A stretch of DNA of 29,999 bases, from positions 1 through 29,999 of the IMG/VR virus record IMGVR_UViG_3300035698_003013. One strand, 5' to 3'. The DNA is from a virus. Under the pieces are notes generated by a model, which was given only the letters and a program-made list of their open reading frames with translations, had not been told where the DNA came from and did not search any database. Position numbers and translations under genes: made by a program. Shown piece after piece: positions 3,375 through 29,900 of this stretch (its first letter is position 1; every line of letters starts with the position of its first letter).

Positions 3375-3624
3375 TTTATCACAAATAGCTATAAATAATT
3401 TATTAGAAGATTTTATTAAAAAACCCATAAAGATAACCATAGATGGATTATCAGAAAAGTATACACTAAAAGGTACTTTTCAGGTTTTCAAGAAAACTAA
3501 GGAGGGTAAAGATGAAGATAAGCATGTTCCAAAGAGCAGCGAACCGGATAAAGGGATGGACGTTACCGGATTGGCTAAGAGATCTACTAGGAGTAGTAGA
3601 ATCAGGACTTCTCGATCTAGGTAA
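3364..3624 (+). CDS. Hypothetical small protein with basic tail
   Basis: An 86-codon frame with a good site (GAGGAAGG) before ATG 3364. It overlaps the previous gene by 11 bases and the next by 113. Residues 1-45 look like a normal protein (SQIAINNLLEDFIKKPIKITIDGLSEKYTLKG). From about residue 50 the sequence becomes low-complexity Ser/Arg/Lys (TGLAKRSTRSSRIRTSRSR), exactly where the next, better-supported gene is read in another frame. The tail may therefore be a by-product of overlap. I do not recognise a family. Confidence 0.5.
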   Translation: MGFDLSQIAINNLLEDFIKKPIKITIDGLSEKYTLKGTFQVFKKTKEGKDEDKHVPKSSEPDKGMDVTGLAKRSTRSSRIRTSRSR

Positions 3625-3811
3625 GGCTGTCACGCTTGAGATAAGAAATGCAGTAGTGTTCGCAGCAGAACATCCAGATTGGGATAATGATGCGAAGTTT
3701 AGCTATGTATTTACTCGTGTTAGGAATATCTATAACCATATAGGAGAGAATATCTTAGGGATAGCCATAAAAGCTATGGTTGCCAGCCTTAAAGAAAAAA
3801 AACATATTTAA
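3512..3811 (+). CDS. Small late-operon protein, possibly holin-accessory-like
   Basis: A 99-residue protein with a strong AAGGAGG site before ATG 3512. It has an amphipathic N-terminus (ANRIKGWTLPDWLRDLLGVVESGLLDLGKAVTLEIRNAVVFAAE), then DWDNDAKFSYVFTRVRNIYNHIG and a helical end finishing in KEKK. The 'AVxxAE...(D/N)..KF.YVF..V' pattern recalls small proteins encoded beside phage holins, including the C-terminal part of LLH-type holins. No full membrane helix is evident here. A lysis-related role is inferred from position only. Confidence 0.55.
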   Translation: MKISMFQRAANRIKGWTLPDWLRDLLGVVESGLLDLGKAVTLEIRNAVVFAAEHPDWDNDAKFSYVFTRVRNIYNHIGENILGIAIKAMVASLKEKKHI

Positions 3812-9476: not shown

Positions 9477-9598
9477 TGGAAATACTAATAGTGCTAATAT
9501 TTTTTGGTTTTTTCGGCATGGCATGGGCCACAAAGGAAAAAGCTCACCGGATTAACAAAGAGATGGAGGGGAATGAGCCAGAAACAAAGAATACTTAA
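9476..9598 (+). CDS. Single-helix membrane peptide
   Basis: 40 residues beginning in the TAATG overlap with the previous gene and preceded by AAGGAG. Residues 2-19 are strongly hydrophobic (EILIVLIFFGFFGMAWA) followed by a charged tail (TKEKAHRINKEMEGNEPETKNT). This is a typical type of phage mini membrane protein. The last 26 bases overlap the winged-helix gene. Confidence 0.5.
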   Translation: MEILIVLIFFGFFGMAWATKEKAHRINKEMEGNEPETKNT

Positions 9599-9695
9599 AC
9601 ACATTGAAACGCATGGATCAATCTCACCTATTGAAGCGTTAAATAGCTGTAATTGCTTCAGGCTTGCAGCGAGAATATCTGACTTAAAAAAATGA
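9573..9695 (+). CDS. Winged-helix DNA-binding protein, truncated by frameshift
   Basis: ATG 9573 follows GGAGGGG. The 40 residues (MSQKQRILKHIETHGSISPIEALNSCNCFRLAARISDLKK) match the first half of a widespread phage winged-helix type: 'IL..L..G.SITp.EAl..~GcfRLaARI.DLR..GH.I'. The frame stops at TGA 9693, right after seven A. In the +1 frame the expected wing continues as EGHAITTTMTNGYATYSIS and ends at 9777. The gene is therefore either frameshifted (mutation or homopolymer miscall) or read by +1 slippage at AAA-TGA. Family recognition is firm. The status of the break is open. Confidence 0.75.
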   Translation: MSQKQRILKHIETHGSISPIEALNSCNCFRLAARISDLKK

Positions 9696-9777
9696 AGGAC
9701 ATGCTATAACTACTACTATGACTAATGGATATGCTACATACTCTATCAGCGAGAGTGTACCGGAGCAACTGTTTTAG
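9694..9777 (+). other. Out-of-frame remainder of the winged-helix gene
   Basis: Twenty-seven codons in the +1 frame relative to 9573-9695, reading EGHAITTTMTNGYATYSISE then SVPEQLF and a stop. There is no start codon or ribosome binding site of its own in a sensible place. Its content is the expected recognition-helix end and beta wing of the upstream protein (GHxI..T.....YA.Y). Confidence 0.6.
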
Positions 9778-9785
9778 TGATTTTC

Positions 9786-9813
9786 TTGCATTTCAAAATA
9801 AGTAGTATATACT
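9786..9813 (+). promoter_or_regulatory. Predicted promoter for the noncoding locus
   Basis: TTGCAT (9786-9791), a 16-base spacer and TATACT (9808-9813). The upstream context TTTCTTGCA and the 16-base spacing are the same as at the 5318 promoter, which raises confidence in both. The predicted start is near 9820, just ahead of the first long stem arm at 9831. Confidence 0.6.
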
Positions 9814-9819
9814 TGTACT

Positions 9820-9950
9820 ATGATAAGAAATTGGATCGCTCGATATGATAAAAAAAATCAAATTAAAATTTAACTGTAAGCCGGATAGGTGCGTATCTTC
9901 TGTCGATCCCCGACATGTCGAGCGATCCAACACTGATTCCGGCTTTTTTA
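9820..9950 (+). ncRNA. Candidate structured small RNA with interleaved stems
   Basis: The transcript from the 9786 promoter would contain arm A (9831-9847), which pairs with A' (9914-9930) over 17 positions, with one G-U pair and no mismatch in RNA. Inside that loop, arm B (9878-9885, AAGCCGGA) pairs perfectly with B' (9938-9945, TCCGGCTT), which lies outside it. The stems therefore interleave as A-B-A'-B', a pseudoknot or two exclusive folds. B' runs into a T tract. A small hairpin (9901-9905 with 9911-9915) competes with A'. No reading frame of note crosses the locus. Seen in sequence: promoter-like boxes, stems and T tract. Inferred: a discrete RNA. Confidence 0.55.
9878..9950 (+). terminator. 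Intrinsic terminator with long loop
   Basis: AAGCCGGA (9878-9885) and TCCGGCTT (9938-9945) form an 8-bp GC-rich stem that runs into TTTTTTA. The 52-base loop is long and contains A' and a small hairpin that shorten the effective distance. If the A-A' helix forms first, this stem can form only as a pseudoknot, so termination could be conditional. Confidence 0.5.
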
Positions 9951-9963
9951 TTTAGGGGTTATT

Positions 9964-10503
9964 ATGGCTAAACGATTAACCGATTCACGCAAATACCATG
10001 ATCCTTGGTTCAGAAAGCTACAGCCGAAGTATAAACTTTTGTGGGATTATATACTTTGTACTTGCGATCATGCAGGGATTTATAAGGTTGACTTAGATAT
10101 GGCTACATTTTGTGTTGGCATAGACTTTACAAACGAAGAAACCTTGCAACATCTAGGAGACAGAATCCACATAGTTACAGAGGAAGTATGGTTTCTACCT
10201 AAGTTCTTCATGTTTCAGTACGGAGAAAACAATGGTAGTAAGGCTTGTGTTTCTGCTCTTAAATTGATTTCCTCTAGAAACTTAATTAAACTGTTGCCTA
10301 ACTGTTACCAAACAGTTAAGAACAAGAACAAGAACAAGAACAAGGATAAGGTTAAGGTTAAGAACAAGGACAAGAACAAGAAAAAAGCCGAAGTTGATAC
10401 AATAAAAAATGAGTTGCCGCGAGAAAAGCACAAGGGAACAGCTAGAGACTTCAAAGAAATAGTAGAGGAGTACAAGAATGGCAAGCCTAGAAAAAGTAAC
10501 TAG
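9964..10503 (+). CDS. Replication-initiator-like phage protein with Lys/Asn repeat
   Basis: 179 residues, preceded by TAGGGGTT. Residues 1-85 (MAKRLTDSRKYHDPWFRKLQPKYKLLWDYILCTCDHAGIYKVDLDMATFCVG...VWFLPKFFMFQYG) match the N-terminal helical domain of phage replisome-organiser or O-like proteins: 'DPWFRkL.PkyKLfW.yllD.CDhaGiw.vd'. These proteins bind the phage origin or load helicase. Residues about 119-145 are a low-complexity run of Lys-Asn and Lys-Asp pairs encoded by near-perfect 6-base repeats, and then a short basic tail. The C-terminal partner-binding domain expected in longer homologues is absent, so this may be a shortened form. Position directly after the noncoding locus fits an origin-proximal gene. 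Confidence 0.65.
   Translation: MAKRLTDSRKYHDPWFRKLQPKYKLLWDYILCTCDHAGIYKVDLDMATFCVGIDFTNEETLQHLGDRIHIVTEEVWFLPKFFMFQYGENNGSKACVSALKLISSRNLIKLLPNCYQTVKNKNKNKNKDKVKVKNKDKNKKKAEVDTIKNELPREKHKGTARDFKEIVEEYKNGKPRKSN
10318..10382 (+). repeat. Hexanucleotide tandem repeat (AAGAAC-type)
   Basis: Four or more AAGAAC units followed by AAGGAT/AAGGTT/AAGAAC variants, all in frame, encode the Lys-Asn run of the replication protein. The degenerate end suggests expansion by slippage followed by drift. A poly-Lys linker is the likely protein effect. Confidence 0.8.
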
Positions 10504-14560: not shown

Positions 14561-14610
14561 CCTTGAACAGAAGGTGAGAAGGAGACTAACTTGGAGTTCA
14601 CGAAAGGAAA

Positions 14611-14764
14611 AAATGCACCCGATTGATGTAACCAGGAATGAATACTGGCGAGTTACCAAACGACCTTGCCTAGCAAGCCCACCGTTTAGTAACAGAGAGA
14701 GCAAGAACATTCTAGTGTAGTAAGGCTGGAGGACAAGGGTTCAAATCCCTTATCGGGTGCATTT
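14611..14764 (+). ncRNA. tRNA-like structured element 1 (about 150 nt)
   Basis: A perfect 13-base inverted repeat (14611-14623 with 14752-14764, core TGCACCCGAT/ATCGGGTGCA) closes the element. Directly against its 3' arm sits a canonical tRNA T-arm: AAGGG, TTCAAAT, CCCTT (14735-14751), with the conserved TTCRANY loop. A hairpin (14628-14632 with 14652-14656) occupies the D-arm place, and another (14665-14669 with 14673-14677) is central. At 142 bases between the 7-bp acceptor-equivalent ends it is far longer than a tRNA, there is no clear anticodon arm, and the 3' end is GCA, not CCA. It could be a stable tRNA-like RNA or a tRNA with an insertion. Confidence 0.5.
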
Positions 14765-14950
14765 CACAGTTTGAGGGGTTGAAAAAGTAAATAATAAATC
14801 AATATATATGTTAATATATTATATTAAGTGTAAGAAGTGTGTATAAGTTACTATAACTGGCATAGAATCACATTATTAGAGTATAAAAAGTGATGTTTAA
14901 TGGCTGTATATGGGGTTAAAATATCAGAACTGAAGGGTTAAAGGAGGGTT
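14765..14950. other. AT-rich intergenic spacer
   Basis: No credible gene. It holds a weak promoter-like pair (TTGAAA at 14779-14784 with TATATA at 14803-14808), a perfect AT palindrome at 14811-14827 and, at the end, the AAAGGAGGG site of the next gene. With the tRNA-like element it forms the longest gene-poor stretch of the window (14561-14950), so an origin or a regulatory node is possible. Nothing decides between these. Confidence 0.4.
14811..14827. repeat. AT-rich 17-bp palindrome
   Basis: TTAATATA and TATATTAA flank a single T. The symmetry suits a dimeric regulator or an easily melted site, but in AT-rich DNA such palindromes also arise by chance. Confidence 0.4.
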
Positions 14951-20947: not shown

Positions 20948-21283
20948 ACTTATTATTTAAAAAGCGAAGTGATGGAACATCTGGGCAGGATGGGATATTG
21001 GACAACATCTGAACAGTTGAGAAAATATGAAGCGATGGGTATAGTCAGTTTCCACCGGGATAGCAGTGGGTACAGAGTGTGTAACAAGGCAATGGTTAAT
21101 GTGTTAGAACGCATTTATTTATTAAAAACCCTAAGAGTATATTCGCTGAAGGGCATTAAACGATGTGTTGATAACGGAACATTGTTTTCAAAAAGGAATG
21201 ATAATTATATCAGAGATAAGATGAAAAAGATAATAAGAACATATGATAGTGAATTAGCAAAAATGTGTGCTGTGGCGGAATAG
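20945..21283 (+). CDS. MerR-like winged-helix regulator
   Basis: ATG 20945. TTG 20942 is in frame but less likely (112 aa). TTSEQLRKYEAMGIVSFHRDSSGYRVCNKAMVNVLERIYLLKTLRVYSLKGIKRCV matches the MerR DNA-binding domain: helix-turn-helix, 'R.YE..Gi....R....GYR.Y', then a second helix pair 'L..I..L...g.SL..Ik'. No effector domain follows, only a short basic helix. It may regulate the adjoining late genes. The last 20 bases form the 5' end of the second tRNA-like element. Confidence 0.7.
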   Translation: MTYYLKSEVMEHLGRMGYWTTSEQLRKYEAMGIVSFHRDSSGYRVCNKAMVNVLERIYLLKTLRVYSLKGIKRCVDNGTLFSKRNDNYIRDKMKKIIRTYDSELAKMCAVAE

Positions 21284-21413
21284 GTAGACGCACGAAAATC
21301 GACCGGATAGGAATGGTAAGCCTTAACTGAGAACCTTACCTATCATGCAGGGTGACTATACGAGTAATCTGCTTACGAGCGGACAGTTCTCGGCAAATCC
21401 CTGCCAGCACACA
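21264..21413 (+). ncRNA. tRNA-like structured element 2 (about 150 nt)
   Basis: TGTGTGCTG (21264-21272) pairs with CAGCACACA (21405-21413). After the first arm come TG and a perfect tRNA-Leu/Ser-type D arm, GCG-GAATAGGTAGA-CGC (21275-21291). A 10-bp stem with an AATG bulge (about 21306-21320 with 21335-21344) resembles a long variable arm. GCAGGG/CCCTGC (21347-21352 with 21399-21404) stands where the T stem should be, directly against the acceptor, but its loop is 46 bases with its own small hairpins. There is no convincing anticodon arm. All stems nest without conflict. It is too long for a tRNA by about 60 bases, like element 1. Confidence 0.5.
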
Positions 21414-21425
21414 CAAAGGAAAACC

Positions 21426-22173: not shown

Positions 22174-22215
22174 AGCCAGAGTTTAAACAAGAGATTGTTT
22201 TTATTCTGGCTTTTT
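22174..22215 (+). terminator. Intrinsic terminator before the portal gene
   Basis: AGCCAGA (22174-22180) pairs with TCTGGCT (22205-22211) and runs into TTTTT. The 24-base loop contains AAACA/TGTTT. It sits in the only gap of this operon, 13 bases ahead of the portal start, so it may lower or regulate read-through into the head genes. Confidence 0.65.
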
Positions 22216-28709: not shown

Positions 28710-29900
28710 ATGTTTACTAAGCTACTAATTAAGATAGGTGTAATAGCTACACCTTACTTTATTTTGGGAGTGCGTGATATCAGGGATGTGAAACTTGACA
28801 TTGCTGGTATCATTGCACTTGCAATAGGGTTGTCGGCTATTTACGAGTATGGAATAAAACCACAGAGGAACAAGTGGCTCATGATGTTTTTATGGGTCGC
28901 TTGTTCTTCTTACTTTGTAGCACCATTATGTCCGGTAAACATGCTTGGTATGAACGTATCGTTGTTCTGGGTATGGAAACCTATGTACTATATCATAGTG
29001 TTTGGATTAATGATATTCGCAGTATCAAGTGTACCCTATAAGAAAGAAGATGTTATTTCATTAACAAAGATGATGACATGGTGTGGATTTATAATGTCCG
29101 TATACGTCATGTTACAGTACTTCAATTTAGACCAGATATTCCAATCTTCAACAGATGCTACTTATGGTAGAATGGCAGGATTTGTAGGGAATCCAACACA
29201 TGTATCACCATACATAGCAATGATCGTACCAATAGCGTTAAGCCTAAGACGTAGGATAATGGCTCTGGTTATGACTATAGCAGTATTTATGACAACAAGC
29301 ACAGTTGCAATAGTAGCTTTGCTTATTTCAAGTTTATGCTATCTAGCATTACAATCTAAGAAAGGTTTGATATGTAGTGTAATCATATTGTTAGCGGTGT
29401 GTGTTCTTATACCGATAGGTGTAAACTTTGACATCCTTAGTAGCGAGATAATAGCTGATCACGAAAGATTCGAGATGTGGAGTAAGATAGTACATGATTT
29501 ACAGATACCACAGATAGAAGGTACAAAAAAGATATTTCCCTTATTAGGGATGGGGATAGGCACATTTAAGTATGTGTTTCATATGCAACATCAAAACAGG
29601 TTTCATCAAGCACATAACGAATATTTAGAATTATTATATAACTTGGGGATGGTAGGGTTCAGTTTATTTATGATATCAATAGTTGTGTTTATGAAACGCA
29701 ACTTTAAAATAAAAGAGTTGTACTTGTTCCGGTTCGCAAAATCATACGAAACCAGGGTAAGGTCAGCTTTATTAGCATCGTTTATATGTATGTGTGTAAC
29801 AGCATGTGGTACGTTTATATGGCAGATAGGTACTACTGTTTTTATGACATGTTTAGTTGTGGGTTTATTAAGTAATGATCATATAGGAGGGAAAACATGA
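28710..29900 (+). CDS. O-antigen polymerase/ligase-like membrane protein (Wzy/WaaL type)
   Basis: 396 residues starting three bases after the previous stop (AAGGGGTAGTGT before the ATG). About eleven hydrophobic helices are visible, with a large polar loop at about 240-305. GFVGNPTHVSPYIAMIVPIALSL in the middle and LLGMGIGTFKYVF...RFHQAHNEYLELLYNLGMVGF in the loop are hallmark segments of the Wzy_C/O-antigen ligase superfamily ('G.~gNp...a....~~P', 'GiG...~.......~HN.~L...~e.GiiG'). These enzymes join O-antigen units or attach glycans outside the inner membrane. In phage genomes such genes change the host O antigen. That role is inferred. The stop overlaps the next ATG. Confidence 0.8.
   Translation: MFTKLLIKIGVIATPYFILGVRDIRDVKLDIAGIIALAIGLSAIYEYGIKPQRNKWLMMFLWVACSSYFVAPLCPVNMLGMNVSLFWVWKPMYYIIVFGLMIFAVSSVPYKKEDVISLTKMMTWCGFIMSVYVMLQYFNLDQIFQSSTDATYGRMAGFVGNPTHVSPYIAMIVPIALSLRRRIMALVMTIAVFMTTSTVAIVALLISSLCYLALQSKKGLICSVIILLAVCVLIPIGVNFDILSSEIIADHERFEMWSKIVHDLQIPQIEGTKKIFPLLGMGIGTFKYVFHMQHQNRFHQAHNEYLELLYNLGMVGFSLFMISIVVFMKRNFKIKELYLFRFAKSYETRVRSALLASFICMCVTACGTFIWQIGTTVFMTCLVVGLLSNDHIGGKT

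Follow-up and report, generated by a model that had tools for sequence, protein, structure and literature searches.

The sequence under study, hereafter the window, is a virus record of 29,999 bases which belongs to a tailed phage, as recognised from its RecE- and Erf-type recombination genes, a sigma-70-type factor and a large terminase. The element described here is located after a frameshifted winged-helix gene and before a gene for a protein of 179 residues starting at 9964 (Table 1), in the gap that separates them. The product of the latter has no match in Pfam or PHROG and about 60 relatives in phages, several of which align with its repeat-encoded charged stretch; we refer to it as initiator-like, by analogy with replication initiators. 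Within this gene, at 10319-10390 (+), there are tandem hexamer repeats of the AACAAG/GATAAG type, and several relatives of the gene carry similar repeats at the equivalent place. These are origin-like and constitute a candidate replication origin. The upstream neighbour, an HTH_39 winged-helix gene (9504-9779, +), is broken by a frameshift at seven consecutive A near 9686-9692, and the domain continues in another frame; the shift may be an assembly error, the mark of a pseudogene or a programmed event.

Table 1. Positions of the features of the element and of the gene that follows it, in window coordinates.
Feature	Position	Strand	Remark
Weak promoter-like pair, TTGCAT-16-TATACT	9786-9813	+	8 of 12 consensus matches; start expected near 9820
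Arm A, 5' strand of stem 1, TTGGATCGCTCGATATG	9831-9847	+	17-bp pairing with 9914-9930
Linker L1, 30 nt, A-rich, almost G-free	9848-9877	+	60% A, 3% G
Arm B, 5' strand of terminator stem, AAGCCGGA	9878-9885	+	Perfect 8-bp pairing with 9938-9945
GGTG, 5' strand of terminator-stem extension	9888-9891	+	Pairs with 9931-9934; duplex and terminator-state fold
Small hairpin P3, TGTCG-ATCCC-CGACA	9901-9915	+	Fold; two bases in common with A'
Arm A', 3' strand of stem 1, CATGTCGAGCGATCCAA	9914-9930	+	Pairs with A
CACT, 3' strand of stem extension	9931-9934	+	Immediately after A'
Arm B', 3' strand of terminator stem, TCCGGCTT	9938-9945	+	Pairs with B
U tract, TTTTTTATTT	9944-9953	+	Six T at 9944-9949, then ATTT
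Shine-Dalgarno AGGGG of the initiator-like gene	9954-9958	+	Sequence
Replication-initiator-like gene, 179 aa	9964-10503	+	First gene after the leader

Layout and folding of the element

Read from about 9820, the order of the parts is A, L1, B, the small hairpin, A', a short spacer, B', TTTTTTATTT, AGGGG and ATG. Arms A and A' form 16 Watson-Crick pairs and one G-U pair around a loop of 66 nt, and a stem of four base pairs, GGTG with CACT, lengthens B/B' and abuts A'. The original prediction had named both pairs of arms, the T tract, the perfect pairing of B with B' across A/A' and the hairpin overlapping A', and each of these was found where it had been placed. It had also put a promoter-like pair ahead of A. 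The pair is there, with its -10 hexamer ending 17 nt before A, but with its 8 of 12 matches it is not above chance by itself and falls below the cut at which 7 sites were found, versus 6.6 in shuffled sequence. The six-T run ends 14 nt before the ATG at 9964, and as no promoter fits between the T tract and this codon, transcription of the gene has to pass through the element.

A coding explanation does not account for the element, in agreement with the original prediction. Indeed, the 36-codon reading frame that spans it (9845-9955) was rejected, since it is without a clear Shine-Dalgarno sequence, its codon score of -0.13 does not reach the 5th percentile (-0.04) of genuine coding pieces, and its product has no relatives, the tblastn matches to part of the frame falling in unrelated genes.

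Strong stems followed by a T tract precede gene starts at only two places on the + strand of the window, namely B/B' and the leader of the portal-like gene, a third and weaker one being located inside a coding region. The portal-like gene (22229) has an ordinary hairpin terminator at 22174-22211 (+), directly before its Shine-Dalgarno sequence, and a similar arrangement is found in two relatives, L027 and L030; in L027 the 3' half of the portal terminator and the start region resemble those of the 9831-9963 element. Also, the head operon of phage L045 contains a rod-like terminator (3612-3694, AAGCCGGAA...TTCCGGCTTTTTTATTT) whose 17-nt end is common with the window.

Long helices such as A/A' are infrequent by chance: a helix of at least 16 Watson-Crick pairs within 160 nt was obtained in 6 of 900 dinucleotide-shuffled 30-kb windows. 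Given A/A', shuffling of the loop and of the downstream sequence resulted in a crossing stem of at least 8 pairs, with at least 5 G-C, in 122 of 20000 cases, which decreases to 19 of 20000 when a T tract has to follow the stem. The nested RNA fold of the element is 3.8 standard deviations more stable than its shuffles on the + strand and 2.1 on the - strand.

In the order of transcription A/A' is complete at 9930, before B' is made, and A/A' is more stable than nested B/B' by about 8 kcal/mol. Under the standard penalty for loops, a rough energy for the pseudoknot falls between -33 and -39 kcal/mol, as good as or better than the value of about -33 kcal/mol for A/A' alone, and a crude estimate with a doubled penalty yields -27 to -34 kcal/mol; with such crude values, a true pseudoknot and a two-state switch are both possible. 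A/A' and B/B' have no bases in common and no alternative helix takes the bases of the terminator stem, which makes any exclusion between the two topological only, and the two-state idea is thus weaker here than for classical attenuators.

Other structured stretches are found elsewhere in the window. A gene-free region at 14610-14765 (+) has a 13-bp stem, AAATGCACCCGAT/ATCGGGTGCATTT, with a tRNA-like T arm (AAGGGTTCAAATCCCTT) just before its 3' strand, and is possibly a divergent or insert-bearing tRNA-like RNA; ARAGORN called no tRNA or tmRNA in it, and the Rfam tmRNA model gave only 11 bits (E 0.011). A second region of about 145 nt at 21266-21415 (+) has tRNA-Leu-like ends, the 5' TGTGCT pairing with AGCACA near the 3' end, a D arm (GGCGGAATAGGTAGACGC) and an apparent insert in the T arm, and was not called by ARAGORN with introns allowed. 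Finally, a 21-bp stem with a 5-nt loop and 16 Watson-Crick pairs is located at 28864-28910 (+), inside a membrane-protein-like reading frame.

Recurrence of the layout in other phages

Searches by sequence gave no relative of the element in the collections covered. A blastn search of phages and plasmids returned only low-complexity or short chance matches; the 17-nt arm A was present in six viral contigs, the partner being absent in each, and of the 12 viral loci with the B pattern most were ordinary terminators or chance ones. In 29 records searched with a covariance model built on the window element, nothing was retrieved. Rfam release 15 gave no match at the gathering threshold in the window, L059, L183, L123, L121 or L137, and the matches at E up to 10 were at chance level only.

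We have also carried out searches by layout. An exact-arm descriptor, consisting of A, B, A' and B' followed by a T tract and without a Shine-Dalgarno condition, was run on 119 loci (880 kb) and found matches in phages fetched for protein similarity. Each of five settings gave 3-4 real matches, and 12 shuffled copies gave none at four of the settings and 2 in all at the loosest. No match with a T tract came from phages that are characterised or otherwise present in databases (0.8 Mb; lambda, P22, HK022, T7, TP901-1, phiC31, N15, D3, Mu and others). A Shine-Dalgarno sequence and a start codon come after only 1.7% of T tracts. Searching without the T-tract condition added L183 and L059, the latter a contig from a Desulfobacterales assembly. 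Among 395 genomes of its host phylum, a prophage relative of the initiator was found in only one, L059 itself.

A leader descriptor, in which the crossing A-B-A'-B' had to end with B' 8-36 nt before an ATG with a Shine-Dalgarno sequence and no T tract was demanded, was applied to 3862 unique start sites with Shine-Dalgarno sequences in about 3 Mb of phage DNA. Seven matches resulted, with scores of 46-61, and in three passes over shuffled upstream sequences no score reached 44, figures to be read with the fact that the descriptor was built after seeing the window and L037 and that thresholds varied between runs. With a looser descriptor and a U-tract condition five members scored at least 49, the real background reaching at most 39 and the shuffled sequences giving 0.1 matches per pass at the level of the members. 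The seventh leader match, L162 (score 46), was taken as chance, being without a U tract and away from an initiator gene, and matches in L137 and L176 were not counted, as no Shine-Dalgarno sequence and ATG come after them.

The full layout is common to six phages, with the start codons of the leader-descriptor matches at 9964 in the window, 1608 in L183, 3395 in L123, 2289 in L059, 11474 in L125 and 14953 in L121. Their arms differ in sequence and keep their complementarity, stem A having 9-17 pairs and stem B 8-14, with L1 of 12-30 nt, L2 of 14-38 nt and L3 of 1-12 nt, and from 2 to 5 base-pair types occur per helix position across the six. Covariation had been put forward as a check in the original prediction, and pairing kept by different arms provides such a check as far as the architecture goes; as none of the members was found to have a close homologue, the comparison is not one of position-by-position covariation. 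The elements of the window, L121 and L123 have no detectable mutual sequence similarity, and such recurrence may reflect convergence.

A Shine-Dalgarno sequence and an ATG directly follow the element in all members, as the leader descriptor required, and a U tract, which it did not require, follows B' in five of the six (the window, L121, L123, L059 and L125). L183 has a poor U tract, with U residues inside a longer B stem, and in its nested fold B/B' is preferred on its own. Folding predicts a hairpin ahead of A' in the window, L123, L059, L121 and L125 and none in L183. L1 is A-rich and has no G in L183, L123 and L059 (58-67% A), and is less so in L121 and L125. L183 and the relative L037 have features of their own. 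In L183 (1560-1608) A' could pair either with A or with the Shine-Dalgarno region of the next gene (GGAGATGAT), which makes a translational switch possible there. In L037 (6512-6667; the same stretch is found in L121, from 14814) a small reading frame with a strong Shine-Dalgarno sequence, AGGAGG, starts just before A and reads through the whole element, which would allow for a leader-peptide input there.

As to their location, all six elements are found 133-2962 nt upstream of an initiator-like gene, on the same strand. This zone holds 211 of the 3862 start sites (5.5%), and the chance probability that all six fall in it is about 3e-8; leaving out the window, it is 5e-7 for the other five. 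Of 66 starts of initiator relatives, that of the window alone had a T-tract stem crossed by a long helix directly upstream, and the other members emerged only when 0-3 kb upstream of the initiator was searched; the element is absent from about 49 of 55 contexts of initiator relatives with enough upstream sequence, most of which have a gene directly upstream. Promoters matching the consensus at 11 of 12 positions precede the element in L121 (TTGACA-17-TATACT, ending 52 nt before A) and in L125 (TTGACA-16-TATTAT, ending 19 nt before A). Its place upstream of the initiator and these two promoters make the element look like the leader of an early operon.

Proposed mechanism and alternatives

Chiefly on the comparison between phages, we consider it probable that the element (about 9820-9963) is a cis-acting leader in which an intrinsic terminator forms the second stem of a pseudoknot and gates read-through into the replication operon. 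The nascent RNA would first close the long stem A/A', with B lying in its loop, and B', once made, could pair with B, so that an intrinsic-terminator stem would stand immediately ahead of the U tract. A terminator formed while A/A' persists would have to be a pseudoknot, and one formed when A/A' is prevented would be a nested hairpin; read-through into the replication genes would depend on how these states are balanced. Were termination to win, a short leader RNA of about 130 nt would be released. We infer three steps in this scheme, namely that termination takes place, that A/A' gates it and that some factor or condition flips the switch; the signal might be a protein, an antisense RNA to A or the speed of transcription, and an early/middle switch is possible. 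The idea of a pseudoknotted or conditional terminator, as originally predicted, is strengthened by the presence of the layout in five other phages ahead of the same initiator-like gene, and its conditional side is weakened by helices which share no bases.

The leader could instead contain a constitutive partial terminator, in which B/B' and the U tract lower or insulate transcription and A/A' is stabilising or cleaved by RNase III, with no switching. This has to be taken seriously, as the portal leader of the same phage is exactly that, an ordinary hairpin terminator directly before a Shine-Dalgarno sequence which is kept in L027, and the two together indicate that terminators abutting start codons are a habit of the lineage. 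However, for such a role a simple hairpin would suffice, as it does at the portal gene, whereas here a crossing A stem of 9-17 bp is present in six phages and shuffled sequences scarcely ever score as high, and we thus regard a constitutive terminator as unlikely.

Control of translation, or protection of the mRNA, appears improbable on balance. A pseudoknot by the Shine-Dalgarno sequence would gate the entry of ribosomes or shield the 5' end of the mRNA, and in L059, L183 and L123 the predicted pairing of B' and its flank with the Shine-Dalgarno region exceeds that of 93-96% of shuffles; the complementarity of A' to the ribosome site in L183 points in the same direction. Yet this pairing is no better than in shuffles in the window, L125 and L121, being too weak to be taken as a feature common to the members, and ribosome control has no need of the U tract after B', a feature of terminators.

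An independent gene for a trans-acting small RNA, standing before the initiator gene by chance, is very improbable: a stable fold of about 130 nt with a promoter-like pair and a terminator-like end would suit it, and the IsrK RNA of Gifsy-1 is a terminated leader that also acts as a trans regulator (PMC4825925), but every member is tied to a following Shine-Dalgarno sequence and ATG and to the initiator operon (the descriptor covered start sites only), the arms share nothing, unlike those of a conserved target-binding RNA, and the window holds no second complementary site. The last observation, and the fact that neither a nearby opposite-strand terminator nor a convincing opposite-strand promoter is found, leave the suggested antisense control of copy number, directed at the initiator leader, without support from the sequence. 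An origin acting as DNA, which had equally been suggested, is not supported either, since the arms differ entirely between members and the strand is fixed by the U tract and the start codon, the origin-like repeat being located inside the initiator gene instead.

Comparison with known systems

Transcription attenuators (amino-acid leaders, T-box leaders and riboswitch platforms) resemble the element in having a terminator stem and a U tract between the promoter and the first start codon, and a second long helix which is formed earlier. Such an arrangement is what we observe here, with a weak promoter in the window and near-consensus ones in L121 and L125. In known conditional terminators two helices compete for the same bases, whereas in the element the terminator stem and its partner cross without common bases, and no known sensor domain is present. 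The crossing order A-B-A'-B', which is beyond chance and kept in the relatives, is that of an H-type pseudoknot. If the element terminates transcription, it would represent a different way to gate an operon and a handle on the timing of replication genes in little-studied phages; moreover, it can be found by layout even where the sequence itself reveals nothing.

The element also resembles HDV-like ribozymes, which are nested pseudoknots with the strand order P1-P2-P3-P1'-P2'. In these, P1 starts at the cleavage site and has about 7 bp, the P1-P2 junction is short and a P4 is present, whereas the corresponding stem of the element has 9-17 bp, the linker 12-30 nt, and there is no P4 or family match, so that this assignment was rejected. 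A type III toxin-antitoxin RNA (ToxI) was likewise discarded, as it would have tandem short repeats upstream of a ToxN-like gene, whereas no repeats of this type are present and the downstream gene has no family match. Among titles and abstracts of the open-licence literature on pseudoknots, terminators, phages and structured RNA surveys, none describes the layout. We would tentatively suggest that it represents a class of phage leader RNA not described so far, whose intrinsic terminator is one stem of a pseudoknot, which controls the replication operon in otherwise dissimilar phages and which could switch early read-through without a known ligand domain.

Leaders of SAM-II riboswitches have in common with the element a 5' pseudoknot near a terminator or a Shine-Dalgarno sequence, and differ in containing a small-molecule aptamer with a family model of its own, the element having no Rfam match (PMC9373788). 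The leader IsrK of the Gifsy-1 prophage exists both as a terminated RNA and as a read-through mRNA; as in our proposal, a phage leader RNA ends at an intrinsic terminator and read-through leads into a phage operon, whereas IsrK pairs in trans with its own read-through mRNA and, in the text consulted, a crossing-stem terminator is not described (PMC4825925). The put RNA of HK022 has no crossing stems, its two nested stem-loops binding RNA polymerase and affecting distant terminators, and resembles the proposed element in being a cis-acting phage leader RNA which acts on the termination of early genes (PMC9378689).
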